A DNA stretch of 64,000 bases from the NCBI RefSeq assembly GCF_000024985.1, contig NC_013524.1, positions 558,001 through 622,000 on the forward strand, given 5' to 3'. A program made the translations under genes and the position numbers. Positions 10,259 through 28,196 of the stretch are shown piece by piece. This DNA is from Sphaerobacter thermophilus DSM 20745 (GTDB taxonomy: Bacteria; Chloroflexota; Chloroflexia; Thermomicrobiales; Thermomicrobiaceae). Positions within the stretch are counted from its first letter, which is position 1, and each line of letters starts with the position of its first letter. Under the pieces are notes generated by a model. That model saw only the letters and a program-made list of their open reading frames with translations, searched no databases and was not told the DNA's origin.

Positions 10259-11221
10259 ATGGGACAATACGTCGTGCGCCGGGTGCTCCAGATCGTCCCG
10301 CTGGTGCTCGGCATCACGATCATCACCTTTGCGCTGGCAAACCTGGTACCCGGGAGCCCAATCTCCGACCTCGAGTTCAACCCGCAGGTGCGGCCCGAGG
10401 ACCGGGAGCGCATCGCCAAGGCACTCGGCCTCGATCAGCCCTTGCACGTCCGTTATATCCAGTGGCTCTCGCACGTGGCGCGCGGTGATCTCGGCCTGTC
10501 GCTGATCACCTACCAGCCGGTCATGAAGACCATCATGGAGAAGCTGCCGAACACGCTGCTTCTCACGGTGACGGCACTGATTCTGTCGCTGCTTATCGCC
10601 ATCCCGATCGGGGTCTACGGCGCCGTCAGGCGCAACTCTGCCTTCGACCAGGTGACAACCGTGGGGGCGGTGGCCGGCTTCGCCATGCCCACCTTCTGGC
10701 TGGGGCTGATGGTGATCCTCATCCTGGTGCGCATGAAGGGCGCAGGATTGCCCACCCTGCCCACCGGCGGGGTCTGCGAGCTGGGGAACTGCACCGTTCT
10801 CAGCCGCATCCAGCACCTCATCGCACCCGCCTTCGTCCTCGCATTCGTTCAGACCGCGAGTTGGACCCGCTACATCCGTTCCCAAATGATCGAAGTCCTG
10901 CGACAGGACTACATGCGCACCGCCGAGGCCAAGGGGCTCCGTGAGGTCGTCGTCGTCTTCCGACACGGCCTGCGCAACGCGATCTTGCCGCTGGTCACGC
11001 TGCTGGCGCTGGATCTCCCGACCCTCTTCAGCGGCTCGGTGATCGTCGAGCAAATCTTCACCTGGAACGGATTGGGTCGGCTGATCCTCGACTCGGTCAA
11101 TAAGCGCGACTACACTGTCGTCATGGGCGTCACCCTGTTCGTGTCGGTCCTCACGGTGGTTGCGAACCTTCTGGCAGATATTGTGTACGGCGTGCTTGAC
11201 CCACGCATTCGTTACGATTGA
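10259..11221 (+). CDS. ABC transporter permease (DppB-like)
   Basis: A 320-residue inner-membrane permease. It begins with the typical VVRRVLQIVPLVLGITIITF first helix, has the N-terminal TM_PBP1 region, and carries the ATPase-contacting EAA loop EAKGLREVVVVFRHGLRNA. It ends with the usual VLDPRIRYD tail of the DppB group. ATG 10259 follows GGGGAGAGCGTC. It pairs with the DppC-like gene starting at 11295 to form the membrane channel of the importer. Confidence 0.92.
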   Translation: MGQYVVRRVLQIVPLVLGITIITFALANLVPGSPISDLEFNPQVRPEDRERIAKALGLDQPLHVRYIQWLSHVARGDLGLSLITYQPVMKTIMEKLPNTLLLTVTALILSLLIAIPIGVYGAVRRNSAFDQVTTVGAVAGFAMPTFWLGLMVILILVRMKGAGLPTLPTGGVCELGNCTVLSRIQHLIAPAFVLAFVQTASWTRYIRSQMIEVLRQDYMRTAEAKGLREVVVVFRHGLRNAILPLVTLLALDLPTLFSGSVIVEQIFTWNGLGRLILDSVNKRDYTVVMGVTLFVSVLTVVANLLADIVYGVLDPRIRYD

Positions 11222-11294
11222 CGCAAGACCGGTGGCCGGGCCCGCCGCCGTGCCCGGCCGATACGTTGTCGTGAGAGAGCTTTGGAGTTGAGCG

Positions 11295-12254
11295 ATGGCA
11301 GAGGTTCGACCCGAAGGCTTCGCGGAGCGACGCCCAGCGGCTCCGGCCACCAGCCGGGTGGCGGATGATCTCAGCCGCGTCGGCCGTACCAAGCCCCGCA
11401 GCAACGCACAACAGGCATGGGCGCGCTTCCGGCGAAACCGCCTGGCCATGGCCTCAATCGTCGTGGTCCTGCTGGTGTTCGCCTTCGGGTTCGGCGCACC
11501 GCTTATCTCCCGCTACGTCACGCACGTCGGCTACGACACGCAGTCGCTGCTCGACAAGTTCAAGAAGCCGGGCGAAGACGGCTATATCCTCGGCACGGAC
11601 AACCTGGGCCGGGACGTCCTCACCCGCCTCGCCTACGGCGCCCGCATGTCGATGATGGTCGCCATTCTGGCCGTCGCCAGCGCGCTCCTCCTCGGCGGCA
11701 CGCTCGGGTCGCTGGCCGGCTACTACGGTCGGTGGATCGACTCAGTCATCATGCGCTTCGTCGACATCATGCTCTCGATCCCCTCGCTCTTCCTTCTCAT
11801 CTTCATCAACACGCTCTTCACCGTCGGTGCCACCGCCCTCGCGTTTGTCATCGCCTCAGTGAGCTGGATGGGTCTCGCCCGGCTGATCCGCGGCGAGATT
11901 ATGTCCATCAAGCGCCGCGACTACGTCGAAGCGGCGCGCGTGCTCGGCGCTCCAGACAGCCGGATCATCACCCGGCACATCCTGCCGAACGTGACGCCGA
12001 TCGTCATCGTCTGGGCAACGCTGGCCCTGCCGGCCTTCATCCTGGTCGAAGCTGCCCTCAGCTTCCTCGGCCTCGGCGTGCAGGTGCCCGTCCCGAGCCT
12101 GGGCAATATGCTCAGCGACGCCATCACCTACATCTCCCACTCCTGGTCGCTGATCTTCATCCCCGGCTTCGTCATCTACATCACGGTGCTGGCGATCAAC
12201 CTGTTCGGCAACGGCCTGCGCGACGCGCTCGACCCGCGCCTGGGCGAGAACTAG
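11295..12254 (+). CDS. ABC transporter permease (DppC-like)
   Basis: A 319-residue permease with the DppC N-terminal cytoplasmic stretch, first helix around residues 52-72, the signature ILGTDNLGRDVLTRLAYGAR and the EAA loop AARVLGAPDSRIITRHILPN. It ends ALDPRLGEN, typical of the family. It lies 73 bases after the DppB-like gene. No DppD/DppF ATPase follows, so the energising subunits must be supplied from elsewhere in the genome. Confidence 0.92.
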   Translation: MAEVRPEGFAERRPAAPATSRVADDLSRVGRTKPRSNAQQAWARFRRNRLAMASIVVVLLVFAFGFGAPLISRYVTHVGYDTQSLLDKFKKPGEDGYILGTDNLGRDVLTRLAYGARMSMMVAILAVASALLLGGTLGSLAGYYGRWIDSVIMRFVDIMLSIPSLFLLIFINTLFTVGATALAFVIASVSWMGLARLIRGEIMSIKRRDYVEAARVLGAPDSRIITRHILPNVTPIVIVWATLALPAFILVEAALSFLGLGVQVPVPSLGNMLSDAITYISHSWSLIFIPGFVIYITVLAINLFGNGLRDALDPRLGEN

Positions 12255-15876: not shown

Positions 15877-16701
15877 GTGGTTGGCGAACTGCCATTCATG
15901 AAGCTCAGCGGGGCGGGAAACGACTTCATCGTGCTGGCCGAGGAGGACGCAGCCGACCTTGATCTCAGTTGGCTAGCCCGCCGGCTCTGTACCCGTGCGC
16001 TGTCGCTCGGCGCCGACGGGATTATCGTCGTCGGCGCCGAGCGGTCCGACGCGGCGCGCATCCGCTTCTACAACCCGGATGGCTCTCTCGCCGAGATGTG
16101 CGGCAACGGCAGCCGCTGCGCCGCGCGCTACGCCGTAGAGCGAGGGCTTGTGCAGGGCCCCGAATTCCACCTGCTCACCGACTCCGGGGATCTGCCGGTC
16201 ATGGCCCGCCCTGACGGGCGGTTTGAGGTGGTCATGCCGGAACCGGAGCAGGTCCGCTTCGATGCCATGACGGTCGAGGCGGGTGAGGAGCAATGGCCGC
16301 TCCACGCACTGTGGGTCGGCGTGCCCCACGCGGTCGTGTTCGTGCCGGACGTTGAGCGCCACTCTGACGAACACCTCACCGCGCTCGGACGGGCGCTGCG
16401 ATACGACGACAAGCATTTCCCGGCCGGGACGAACGTCAACTTCGTCGAGGTGGCGCCAGATCGGCCGATCCGGCAGCGGACCTATGAGCGCGGCGTCGAG
16501 GCGTTGACCAAGGCCTGCGGCACCGGCGCCACCGCGACCGCGTTCGTCGTCCACACGCTGCTGGATCGCCCCTGGCCGGTGGACCTGGTGGTCGATGGCG
16601 GACGCCTGACGGTCGACCAGCGCGACGGTCGTCTGTGGCTGATCGGAGACGCGCGCATCATCGCACGGGGTACGCTGAGCCCCGAAGCGCTGGCCTGGTA
16701 G
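15877..16701 (+). CDS. dapF: Diaminopimelate epimerase
   Basis: A 274-residue PLP-independent racemase that converts LL- to meso-diaminopimelate for peptidoglycan and lysine. Both active-site Cys are present, in EMCGNGSRCAARY (about residue 74) and KACGTGATATA (about 214), and the N-terminal KLSGAGNDFIVL and PDGSLAEMCGNG motifs are typical. GTG 15877 is chosen because AAGGGAGG lies at good spacing and gives the usual family length. The DUF2203 gene starts 26 bases downstream. Its presence indicates the DAP lysine pathway even though lysX is also in this window. Confidence 0.94.
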   Translation: MVGELPFMKLSGAGNDFIVLAEEDAADLDLSWLARRLCTRALSLGADGIIVVGAERSDAARIRFYNPDGSLAEMCGNGSRCAARYAVERGLVQGPEFHLLTDSGDLPVMARPDGRFEVVMPEPEQVRFDAMTVEAGEEQWPLHALWVGVPHAVVFVPDVERHSDEHLTALGRALRYDDKHFPAGTNVNFVEVAPDRPIRQRTYERGVEALTKACGTGATATAFVVHTLLDRPWPVDLVVDGGRLTVDQRDGRLWLIGDARIIARGTLSPEALAW

Positions 16702-22606: not shown

Positions 22607-23666
22607 ACGCTTGGTGTGAGTTAGCCGGGGCATGCTGTGCCCTCTTGACACAGGAAGGTGCCCACTTCCATACGGGAGATAGCTCGTATCCGTCTCCCAC
22701 GAAAGGAGCACCCGATGGATGTGGACACCTTCCTGATTACAGTCTATGTCCTGGTCGACACCTTCTGCCAGACCCACCTGCCCCCGGAGCCCCACCGCCC
22801 CGGCCCCGCGCCGGCCCTGAGCCGCAGCGAGGTCTTGACCCTGGCCATCTTCGGGCAGTGGATGAGGTTCTCCAGTGAGCAGGACTTCTACCGCTACGCC
22901 GAGCGCCACCTGCGCCCCTACTTCCCGACCCTGCCCCACCGCAGCCAATACAACCGGCTGCTGCGGCGGCATCAGGTCGCCCTGGCCCAGTTCGCCCTCT
23001 ACCTGGCAGACCAACTTGGCCGGGGGCCAGTGGCGGTGGATGTGCTCGATGTGGCGCCGGCTCCGGTGCGCAACGCCAAGCGCCGCGGGCGGGGCTGGCT
23101 GGCCGGCGAGGCCAACATCGGCTTCAGCTTGCGCCTGGGCTGGTTTGCCGGCTTCCGCGTGCTGACCGCCGTCAGCCTGGAGGGGGCGATCACCGGCTGG
23201 GGCGTGGCCCCGGCCAGCACCAATGAGCGGTCCCTCGCCGAGACCCTGATTGCCTGTCGGGCCCACCCCGATCCCCGCCTGCCCAGTGTCGGCACGCCGG
23301 TGGCGACCTATCTGGCGGATAGTGGCTTTGCCGGCGAGGACTACGAGGCGCACCTGGCGGCCACCTACGGGGTGACGCTGGTGGCCACCCCGCAGCGAGG
23401 CAGTCGGCGGCGCTGGCCCAAGGCGGTCCGCCGCTGGGCGGCCCGGCATCGCCAGATCGTGGAGACGGTCATCGGGCGGCTGCTGCACACCTTCGGGCTG
23501 GAGCGCGAGCGGCCGCACACGCTGGCGGGCTTCCAGGCGCGGCTGGCGGCCCGGGTGGCGCTGCACAATCTCTGCTGCTGGCTAAATCGGCAGCGGGGAC
23601 GGCCGCTGCTGGCGGTGGCGAACCTGATCACCTGGTAGCCACGGCGCCCTAACTCACACCAAGCGT
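22607..23666 (+). mobile_element. IS982-family insertion sequence
   Basis: A complete element of about 1060 bases with perfect terminal inverted repeats ACGCTTGGTGTGAGTTAG at both ends (22607-22624 and 23649-23666) and one transposase gene. The flanking TTTA occurs on both sides (22603-22606 and 23667-23670) and looks like the target duplication, although IS982 elements often give longer ones. Removing the element and one TTTA restores a GCCCGGCGCCTTTAGCCCCG palindrome of the local repeat family. Confidence 0.88.
22715..23638 (+). CDS. IS982-family transposase
   Basis: A 307-residue DDE transposase. The acidic triad is in AVDVLDVAP (about residue 109), YLADSGFAG (about 202) and IVETVIGRLLHTFG (about 249), and PTLPHRSQYNRLLRR is typical of the family's N-terminal region. 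ATG 22715 follows GAAAGGAGCACCCG; an ATG 57 bases upstream is in frame but lacks a ribosome site. The gene is intact, so the element could still be active. Confidence 0.9.
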   Translation: MDVDTFLITVYVLVDTFCQTHLPPEPHRPGPAPALSRSEVLTLAIFGQWMRFSSEQDFYRYAERHLRPYFPTLPHRSQYNRLLRRHQVALAQFALYLADQLGRGPVAVDVLDVAPAPVRNAKRRGRGWLAGEANIGFSLRLGWFAGFRVLTAVSLEGAITGWGVAPASTNERSLAETLIACRAHPDPRLPSVGTPVATYLADSGFAGEDYEAHLAATYGVTLVATPQRGSRRRWPKAVRRWAARHRQIVETVIGRLLHTFGLERERPHTLAGFQARLAARVALHNLCCWLNRQRGRPLLAVANLITW

Positions 23667-26653: not shown

Positions 26654-27562
26654 CTACACCGCCATGGCGGCCTCGCGGCGCTCGGCTCGCTGCGCGGCCA
26701 GCGCGAGGGCGTGGTCCACGATGCGGCCCGGGATGTTCACGCCCGTGGTGTGGATGCTGTTGCGGAACTCCATCGTGGCGTTGACCTCGTTCACCAGGAG
26801 CCCACGGTCCGGGTCCTCGAACAGGTCGATCGCCAGCACCCCGCCGCCGACCGCGCGGGCGACTGCGCTGCACAGCTCGGCGATCTCCGGCGTGACCACG
26901 CAGTTGCTCGCCTCGGCACCCCGCGCGGTGTTGGTGATCCAGTGCCCGGAGCGGCGGTAGATGGCGCAGATCGTCTCGTCGCCGACGACGAAGGCGCGGA
27001 TGTCCCGCCCCGGCTTGCGCACGTACTCCTGGATGTAGAAGGTGCCGTGGTGGAACGCCCCGAGAGACTCCTTGTGCTCCAGCAACGCCTCGGCCGCGGC
27101 ACGGTTGTTGACCCTGGCCAGGAGCCGTCCCCAGGAGCCGACGGGCGGCTTGAGCACAACCGGGTAGCCCAGCGACTCGATCGCCTCCAACGCTGCCTCG
27201 GGCGTGTAGGCGACCAGCAGGCGCGGCTGCGGCAGCCCGGCGCAGGCGATCGCGGCCGAGGTGCGCAGCTTGTCGTTGCAGAGCGCCACTACCTCAGACC
27301 GGTTGAGCGTCGGGATGCCCCACCCTTCGGCGATCGCCAGGGTGTGCAGGGTCCGCTGCTGGCTGACGCTGCGCCCGATCACGACATCGTAGTCCCAGGG
27401 CTGGCCGGTGAGGTCGACCACAGCACGACGATCGTCGATACGGGCGACTTCGATGCCGCGGCGCGCGAACTCGGCGAAAAGCAGTCGCTCCTCAGCCCGC
27501 AGCGGGCCGTGGACGACCGCGACGCGTGGCGCCTGCGGCGCGTTGGGGATCGGTGAAGACAT
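26654..27562 (-). CDS. lysX: LysX/ArgX-type LysW-amino acid ligase (ATP-grasp)
   Basis: A 302-residue RimK-like ATP-grasp enzyme. LysX-group features are [16 protein letters not shown] (about residues 132-147) and [20 protein letters not shown] (about 257-276). In the LysW-mediated pathway it attaches alpha-aminoadipate (or glutamate, ArgX) to the C-terminal Glu of the carrier LysW. No lysW or other pathway gene is in the window. ATG 27562 follows GAGGAGAACGGACCG. It is preceded by a promoter and a T-box leader, so transcription should respond to an uncharged tRNA. RimK-type ribosomal modification is less likely given the NATMEFRNS motif. Confidence 0.85.
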
Positions 27563-27861
27563 CGGTCCGTTCTCCTCTTCGGTCAGGTTCCGCTCCAAAG
27601 ACGACAGACACGGGCAGCGCCGACGGTTTGCACCGCAGCGAGCGCCGGGCCTGTTTGGCTTTGGAGCCGGCGAGAACGGACCATGGTTTGAGGGCGTCCG
27701 AGGAGGACCCGGCGCGGCGCGCCGGCAGGAGAGCCACGGTGTTCCGGACGATGTTGTCCATGTGATCGCGCATCTCTGCCTCTCTCGGACGGGCCGGGAC
27801 GCTCCCGGCATGGTACGAATACGAACTCGATCGACGGCGACACCGGCGAGGCGCGGGGAAA

Positions 27862-27894
27862 CAAAAAACCGCCGCCCCGGCTGGGGACGAGCGG
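27862..27894 (-). terminator. T-box terminator hairpin
   Basis: CCGCTCGTCCCC and GGGGCGGCGG form an imperfect stem followed by TTTTTT (27863-27868 on the complement), right after the T-box motif. It should stop lysX transcription unless tRNA stabilises the antiterminator. Confidence 0.85.
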
Positions 27895-28163
27895 TGTCCG
27901 ACTCGTGGTACCACCCCACTTCGCCGTGCCCTCGCGGGTCACGGCCTCAACCCGTGCCGATACCTCGACACGGCCGGTTCGCTAACGGGAACCGCTCCCG
28001 TCGCCGCCTACTAGGAGGGGCAGCGCCCGCTCCGTTGGGGGCGAGGCTCCGAGGGCTTCTTCGCCGGCATTCCCGATCCCGCTTCTCAGCGCCCGCGGTT
28101 CTCTGTCTCGTTCCTGCCGGTTACTCGTCCTCATCAACGCCGGTGCGCGCTCAGTTGTCCGCG
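27862..28163 (-). promoter_or_regulatory. T-box leader of lysX
   Basis: Read on the minus strand, the leader has Stem I (GAGG ... CCGGCA pairing TGCCGG ... CCTC) with GACGAGTA on its 5' side and AGAGA and CTGAGAAG loops, then the diagnostic T-box GTGGGGTGGTACCACG at 27904-27919 and a terminator with six U. The loop opposite the AGTA side reads CGAAGAAGC (28055-28063) and should hold the specifier codon: AAG (Lys), AGA (Arg) and GAA (Glu) all occur, so the tRNA cannot be decided by eye. About 280 bases lie between terminator and lysX start; a 140-codon frame there (27492-27914) lacks homology. Confidence 0.85.
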
Positions 28164-28167
28164 GCAG

Positions 28168-28196
28168 ACGGTAGCACAGGGGGCAGCGAGAATCAA
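28168..28196 (-). promoter_or_regulatory. Promoter of the T-box/lysX transcript
   Basis: On the minus strand TTGATT (28191-28196), 17 bases, TACCGT (28168-28173), immediately upstream of the T-box Stem I. Confidence 0.65.

Follow-up and report, generated by a model that had tools for sequence, protein, structure and literature searches.

The gene lysX of Sphaerobacter thermophilus DSM 20745 raises two questions: what does the RNA leader in front of it sense, and does the enzyme behind it serve lysine or arginine synthesis? The initial annotation of the window (64,000 nucleotides of contig NC_013524.1; coordinates without a further label refer to it, and elsewhere in the genome selected stretches were read) had described a T-box riboswitch ahead of a ligase gene of the LysX/ArgX type. 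Its specifier loop appeared to allow a lysine, an arginine or a glutamate codon. As set out below, the alignments point to lysine, the enzyme appears to be of the LysX type, and a second, translated element probably stands in series with the T-box.

All the parts that had been listed ahead of the ligase gene, namely a promoter, Stem I, the T-box sequence and a terminator with six U, are found, and all of them are on the minus strand. The putative promoter consists of a -35 hexamer TTGATT (28196-28191) and a -10 hexamer TACCGT (28173-28168) with a 17-nt spacer, and hexamers resembling TTGACN and TACANT occupy the equivalent position in relatives. A scan of 1.3 kb with cmscan matches RF00230 at 28146-27880, over the full length of the model (1-219), with 75.3 bits and an E-value of 3.6e-16. 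Within this leader, Stem I carries the specifier loop CGAAGAAGC, and the Rfam alignment places the S-turn AGUA of Stem II (CCUAGUAGG) at 28007..28015. Alignment and sequence together put the T-box sequence GGGGTGGTACCACG (= GGGGUGGUACCACG), with its UGGU bulge, at 27904..27917. The intrinsic terminator, GCTCGTCCCCAGCCGGGGCGGCGG followed by T6, lies at 27863..27892 and is conserved in relatives. As in transcriptional T-boxes, it overlaps with the antiterminator's 3' half. CUCGUCCCC is the antiterminator 3' arm and also lies inside the terminator 5' arm, which makes the two structures mutually exclusive. The same T-box precedes the same gene at the orthologous loci of 16 other genomes of the family. 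The covariance match and this shared arrangement confirm the lysX T-box as a real and complete leader of the transcriptional type, with a predicted response to tRNA.

A default scan of the window is silent at this place, since the match of 75.3 bits is below the Rfam gathering score for RF00230, which is 93. The genome (3.99 Mb, two replicons) has 11 T-boxes in total, and a scan by E-value puts nine of them under the gathering score. It also encodes a RimK-like protein identical to that of PDB 5i47, and the genomes nearest to it are of Sphaerobacter and Thermomicrobium species. As T-boxes under the threshold stand before fitting genes, we blame the silence of the default scan on the threshold and not on the element. 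The covariance search that had been proposed as a check therefore comes out in favour of the T-box, although at a score below the gathering one.

Structural alignment, the other check proposed, bears on the specifier. The covariance alignment puts GAA-G-AAG-C ahead of the CCUC strand (GAA-G-AAG-C-CCUC), a position that makes AAG (Lys), at 28056..28058, the specifier. AAG is invariant in 21 loci, that is in 17/17 family members and in the distant relatives L029, L031, L033 and L034. Its flanks vary: the preceding base can be G, A, U or C and the next one C, A or G, as in the relatives' loops GAA-A-AAG-A, GAA-U-AAG-C, GAA-G-AAG-G, GAA-A-AAG-C and GAA-C-AAG-A. The same reading rule gives the right amino acid for each of the genome's 10 other T-boxes, whose downstream genes were named by reading their N-termini: leuA and leuS (CUC), trpE and trpS (UGG), ileS (AUC), valS (GUC), metX and a metE-like gene (AUG), thrS (ACC) and pheS (UUC). 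Some of these control loops have no spacer base, the codon following directly after GAA, and for this reason GAA-GAA (Glu) is conceivable in the lysX loop taken alone; AGA, too, can be read in the single Sphaerobacter sequence. That the T-box reads arginine (AGA) or glutamate (GAA), with ArgX as the gene behind it, is nevertheless hardly credible, because the first GAA is a loop motif conserved in nearly all T-boxes examined, the AGA position is AGC or AGG in relatives, and the gene product carries the LysX substrate motif. Neither AGA nor GAA is conserved as a codon. With the alignment and the 20 relatives, which keep only AAG constant, the ambiguity that had been attributed to the specifier goes away, and by this evidence the specifier is that of lysine and not of arginine.

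The bulge is in line with this reading. UGGU expects A73 as the discriminator base, and A73 is present in both tRNA-Lys species of the genome (CUU and UUU). The variable bulge base differs by specificity, being C in the Trp T-boxes (UGGC) and A in the Thr T-box (UGGA).

Turning to the enzyme, lysX (26654..27562, minus strand) encodes an ATP-grasp ligase of 302 aa that scores 335.2 bits with TIGR02144, against a cut-off of 275.6; the closest solved structures are those of T. thermophilus LysX (3vpd, 1uc8). The product has the motifs GSWGR and EFRNS, the latter being EFKNS in the T. thermophilus enzyme, and a paralogue within the lysW cluster of the other replicon has EFKGL. The two enzymes are told apart by a five-residue signature, which has Asn-Thr in the LysX of Sulfolobus and Gly-Phe in ArgX (PMC10433800). 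The difference between EFRNS and EFKGL marks the lone gene as LysX and the cluster gene as ArgX-like. The choice between LysX and ArgX, which had been left to the identity of the specifier, can accordingly be made on two grounds: specifier and substrate motif agree, and they support a LysX-type enzyme.

The search for lysW that had been suggested finds it on the first replicon (C1:239.4-246.6 kb), where reading of the sequences assigns lysW, a divergent RimK-like gene, lysK, the argX-like gene, lysY, lysZ and lysJ. No T-box and no known Rfam family precedes the cluster in the loci scanned. The lysX gene stands alone on the second replicon, and the first carries lysW, the genes of the shared enzymes and the ArgX-like paralogue. 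Two other features of the cluster may be mentioned. Upstream of lysW (L039, about 11100-11480) there is a conserved PAPIPAPRxLGAPAA-like stretch in one frame together with a terminator-like hairpin; both recur in L191, L192, L194 and L198, with no Rfam match in those scanned. Between the argX-like gene and lysY (L039, 14563-14639) there is a probable long inverted repeat. A eukaryotic microRNA model hits it on either strand, presumably for no other reason than its hairpin shape.

The initial annotation also took dapF in the window as a sign that lysine is made by the DAP route as well. This is only half borne out: dapF (15895-16677) is present, and so are two lysA-like genes in the genome, but model searches do not find dapB in the genus, and the route is incomplete by these models. 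The other route has a gap of its own. No homocitrate synthase over the cut-off is found in the genome; the best match to TIGR02146 has 263 bits against a cut-off of 413.6, and it is the leuA gene under leucine control. Homocitrate synthase would be the source of the alpha-aminoadipate that LysX is expected to use. In one family member (G004) a homocitrate synthase is present and adjoins homoaconitase-like genes. A second aconitase-like pair in Sphaerobacter (C1:13.5-15.2 kb) was considered as evidence for the alpha-aminoadipate route and rejected, as it lies near CoA-transferase-, HMG-CoA lyase- and hydantoinase B-like genes. By these models neither lysine route is complete in Sphaerobacter, so that the assignment of the lone lysX to lysine at the same time exposes a gap in the lysine synthesis of this organism.

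What lies between the T-box and the gene? The earlier description holds from the T-box through the terminator, but it missed a conserved leader of about 300 nt between the terminator and lysX. This stretch contains a leader ORF in 17 genomes of the family, belonging to five genera. In Sphaerobacter the ORF has 93 codons (27492..27773, minus strand) and its own Shine-Dalgarno sequence, GAGAGAGG, at 27786-27779, and it extends 70 nt into lysX in a different frame. A Lys/Arg-rich segment is conserved in all five genera; it is THGAQPHKRGxKRxA followed by the stop in the Thermomicrobium-like genus, VLKRLKACKPGGRG in the second, IAKRSKRAAKPKRLA in the third and VLKRLAGAAKAKRCS in the fourth. The choice of lysine codon is striking. 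Across the 17 genomes, AAA accounts for 56 of the 62 Lys codons in the leaders against 1 of 72 in the lysX genes, and the excess remains with one representative per genus (p 1.7e-17). Within Sphaerobacter the leader uses AAA for 4/4 Lys codons, compared with 11/198 (5.6%) in 19 other genes (p 2e-5). Part of this bias could reflect AAA:UUU pairs within the hairpin that is described below. Lys residues as such are in strong excess in one genus and in modest excess in the others: the Sphaerobacter leader has 3 in 20 codons, and the leaders of the Thermomicrobium-like clade have 2-3 only. Moreover, Arg codons outnumber Lys codons in the leaders, which counts against reading them as a lysine attenuator. 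At the conserved peptide end in the Thermomicrobium-like clade, the three codon positions have 4, 3 and 13 variable sites, respectively, and in L018 AAA CGC is replaced by AAG CGA with the peptide unchanged. This variation at third positions and the synonymous change suggest that the leader is translated and that its sequence is constrained. A more distant lysX (71% identical; L015, genome G030) has no T-box and has a leader ORF with two AAA codons (VLSKSCSKP); a possible hairpin at its ribosome-binding site has a duplex z of only -0.9, and we regard it as a weak lead.

A rival explanation of the second element does without codon starvation. Lysine, arginine or some other metabolite might make the peptide ending in THGAQPHKRGxKRxA arrest the ribosome, or the RNA itself might bind a ligand. 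In the Thermomicrobium-like clade, residues other than Lys are conserved as far as the stop, and Arg codons stand alongside Lys throughout; both agree with peptide arrest. Between genera, though, the residues vary and the AAA codons persist, and the codon bias points to reading by tRNA. No LYS riboswitch is among the Rfam matches at the loci that were scanned. We consider arrest or ligand binding unlikely, if the best of the explanations that compete with an attenuator read at its Lys codons.

The position of the AAA codons is of interest for such an attenuator. The segment just before or at these codons can base-pair with the lysX ribosome-binding site. In Sphaerobacter the predicted hairpin has its 5' arm inside the leader ORF (TGGTCCGTTCTC and GCTCCAAAG, 27659..27683), with AAA codons at 27662-27660 and 27656-27654, and has as its 3' arms CTTTGGAGC (27600-27592) and GAGGAGAACGGACC (27577-27564), all on the minus strand. 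The second of these 3' arms includes the lysX Shine-Dalgarno sequence. The arms differ in sequence by genus (GGTCCGTTCTC/GAGAACGGACC, CTCTCTGGCG/CGCCAGAGAG and GTGTGCTG/CAGCATAC), and the two genera that can be aligned show paired changes, the inner helix being CCAAAG/CTTTGG in one and TGAAAG/CTTTCA in the other. Counting the Shine-Dalgarno bases that are paired in the minimum-energy fold proved a poor discriminator in GC-rich DNA, and duplex energies were used instead, expressed as z against dinucleotide shuffles. For the duplex between the leader ORF and the Shine-Dalgarno region, the genus mean of z is -2.6, -1.8, -2.5, -4.1 and -2.1 in the five genera and 0.17 +/- 1.15 in 26 control genes (genera against controls, p 7e-5). 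The duplexes of L025 and L026, two of the 17, are no better than shuffles. The hairpin is not followed by a U-run, which favours translational control. In the Thermomicrobium-like genus the leader stop lies inside the hairpin; in Sphaerobacter the leader overlaps the lysX start.

A sceptic could still hold that this is a plain lysine T-box and that the 300 nt are an idle 5' UTR, with an ORF and a hairpin that are incidental in GC-rich DNA. The T-box by itself would suffice for lysine control; in the order-level relatives L029, L033 and L034 it stands close before lysX with no leader ORF; and control genes likewise pair much of the Shine-Dalgarno region in their folds (on average 9 of 19 bases in the minimum-energy fold). 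An idle 5' UTR does not account for the excess of AAA codons, nor an incidental hairpin for duplex energies far below those of controls in five genera, nor an incidental ORF for change that falls mainly on third positions in the conserved peptide end. We give this explanation a little less credit than arrest by the peptide. It is most improbable that the ORF codes for a small basic protein with a function of its own and overlaps lysX by chance, for despite its own Shine-Dalgarno sequence and a length of 66-106 codons, its N-terminal part is not conserved, its length and stop vary by genus, and only the segment at the hairpin is kept.

Our preferred reading, which we consider probable, is that lysX is controlled in series, by a T-box at the level of transcription and by a leader-peptide attenuator with Lys codons at the level of translation. 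As we picture it, uncharged tRNA-Lys would bind the T-box through the AAG specifier and stabilise the antiterminator, allowing RNA polymerase to pass the terminator. The readthrough transcript would then bear the leader ORF, with its rare AAA Lys codons and its Arg codons, and the RNA of this ORF can pair with the ribosome-binding site of lysX. With ample charged Lys-tRNA, the ribosome would traverse the leader, the hairpin would re-form and lysX would be poorly translated; in the genus Sphaerobacter the unstalled ribosome may instead cross the lysX start in the other frame. When lysine is short, we infer that the ribosome would stall at the AAA codons and cover the 5' arm, which would expose the ribosome-binding site and allow LysX synthesis. 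Within the LysW pathway only the LysX step is committed to lysine, so that regulation at this point need not deprive the cell of arginine, for which the ArgX-like paralogue and the enzymes shared within the lysW cluster would be used. Judging from the gene arrangement, a switch on this one lysine-committed ligase would keep the shared enzymes available for arginine.

A more speculative suggestion can be added. The tandem may be a two-stage AND gate for lysine, in which the T-box reads tRNA-Lys(CUU) through AAG and the leader reads tRNA-Lys(UUU) through AAA. The AAG specifier pairs fully with tRNA-Lys(CUU), and no tRNA of the genome other than tRNA-Lys(UUU) is expected to read AAA; the codon bias of the leader suggests that tRNA-Lys(UUU) is the one it reads. 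However, tRNA-Lys(UUU) could pair with AAG too, by wobble. Together with the idea that the same tandem operates at leuA and might be an architecture used across the family, we hold this suggestion only tentatively, as somewhat short of an even chance.

The leuA leader itself (C1, L001 1697-2017) has a Leu T-box (CUC) and a terminator, then a leader peptide rich in Leu, MVIGQMAARNLDLLGLFLLSLLRPLGGARGALGGCP, and another terminator, which competes with an antiterminator (GCTGGGAGGC/GCCTCCCAGC) of nearly equal energy. The tandem is found in three genomes of the genus, and two genomes of another genus have a similar peptide. It supports the view that sensors may be stacked here in an analogous way. 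The genome has further composite leaders. A SAM-I riboswitch with its own terminator is immediately followed by a Met T-box (AUG) at metX and at the metE-like gene (L007 1329-1751, L041 3120-2709). A tRNA-Ala(GGC) gene lies inside the leuS T-box leader, before the antiterminator (C1:1582329-1582401; L002, L070), and a tRNA-Val(GAC) gene lies directly upstream of the thrS T-box (L040, 3259-3186 and 3115-2872, respectively). Apart from leaders, transposase-like ORFs with the same N-terminus occur in the window (22658-23638) and in L190 (12139-13119), and are likely one insertion sequence present on both replicons.

T-boxes and leader-peptide attenuators are usually seen as alternatives in different bacterial groups. 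At lysX, in five genera, the two appear stacked for one amino acid, with an analogous case at leuA. This makes it testable why one amino acid should have two sensors and whether two isoacceptors are read separately. The open papers that we searched describe no leader in which a T-box and a leader-peptide attenuator act in series, a search outside which the main T-box surveys may lie, and the open literature yielded no paper on Sphaerobacter and T-boxes.

Several known systems can be compared with the lysX leader. Its T-box adds a member to a known family and shares with other transcriptional T-boxes of RF00230 the specifier loop of Stem I, the S-turn of Stem II, the antiterminator with a UGGU bulge and the overlapping terminator. 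It differs in having a Lys specifier before the lysX of a LysW pathway, in the putative second attenuator behind it, and in being a GC-rich variant below the gathering score. Compared with the LysX and ArgX enzymes of T. thermophilus, Sulfolobus and Thermococcus (3vpd, 1uc8, 3vpb, 5k2m), the enzyme shares GSWGR and has EF(K/R)NS as in T. thermophilus LysX, but its gene stands apart from the lysW cluster on a separate replicon. In translational attenuation of the erm type, a leader peptide is combined with a hairpin that sequesters the ribosome-binding site. Leader-peptide attenuators that hide the ribosome-binding site have been described in general terms (PMC9413887). Like them, the lysX leader has its regulatory codons in a leader ORF that contains the 5' arm of the hairpin; unlike them, it uses the lysine codon AAA, stands behind a T-box and in some genera overlaps its target. 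The translational T-boxes of actinobacterial ileS, which hide the ribosome-binding site (PMC1262725), likewise combine control by tRNA with a sequestering hairpin. There the T-box itself holds the ribosome-binding site, whereas the lysX T-box runs into a terminator and another element would hold the ribosome-binding site. Finally, tandem riboswitches have been published in which a T-box is joined to another T-box or to SAM or ppGpp elements (PMC12452182, PMC7583486), the T-box/SAM tandems being reported for Bacillota (PMC12452182). These too place two sensors in one leader and combine their logic. The difference is that the second sensor of lysX would be a translated peptide and not an aptamer, and that both sensors would respond to the same amino acid.
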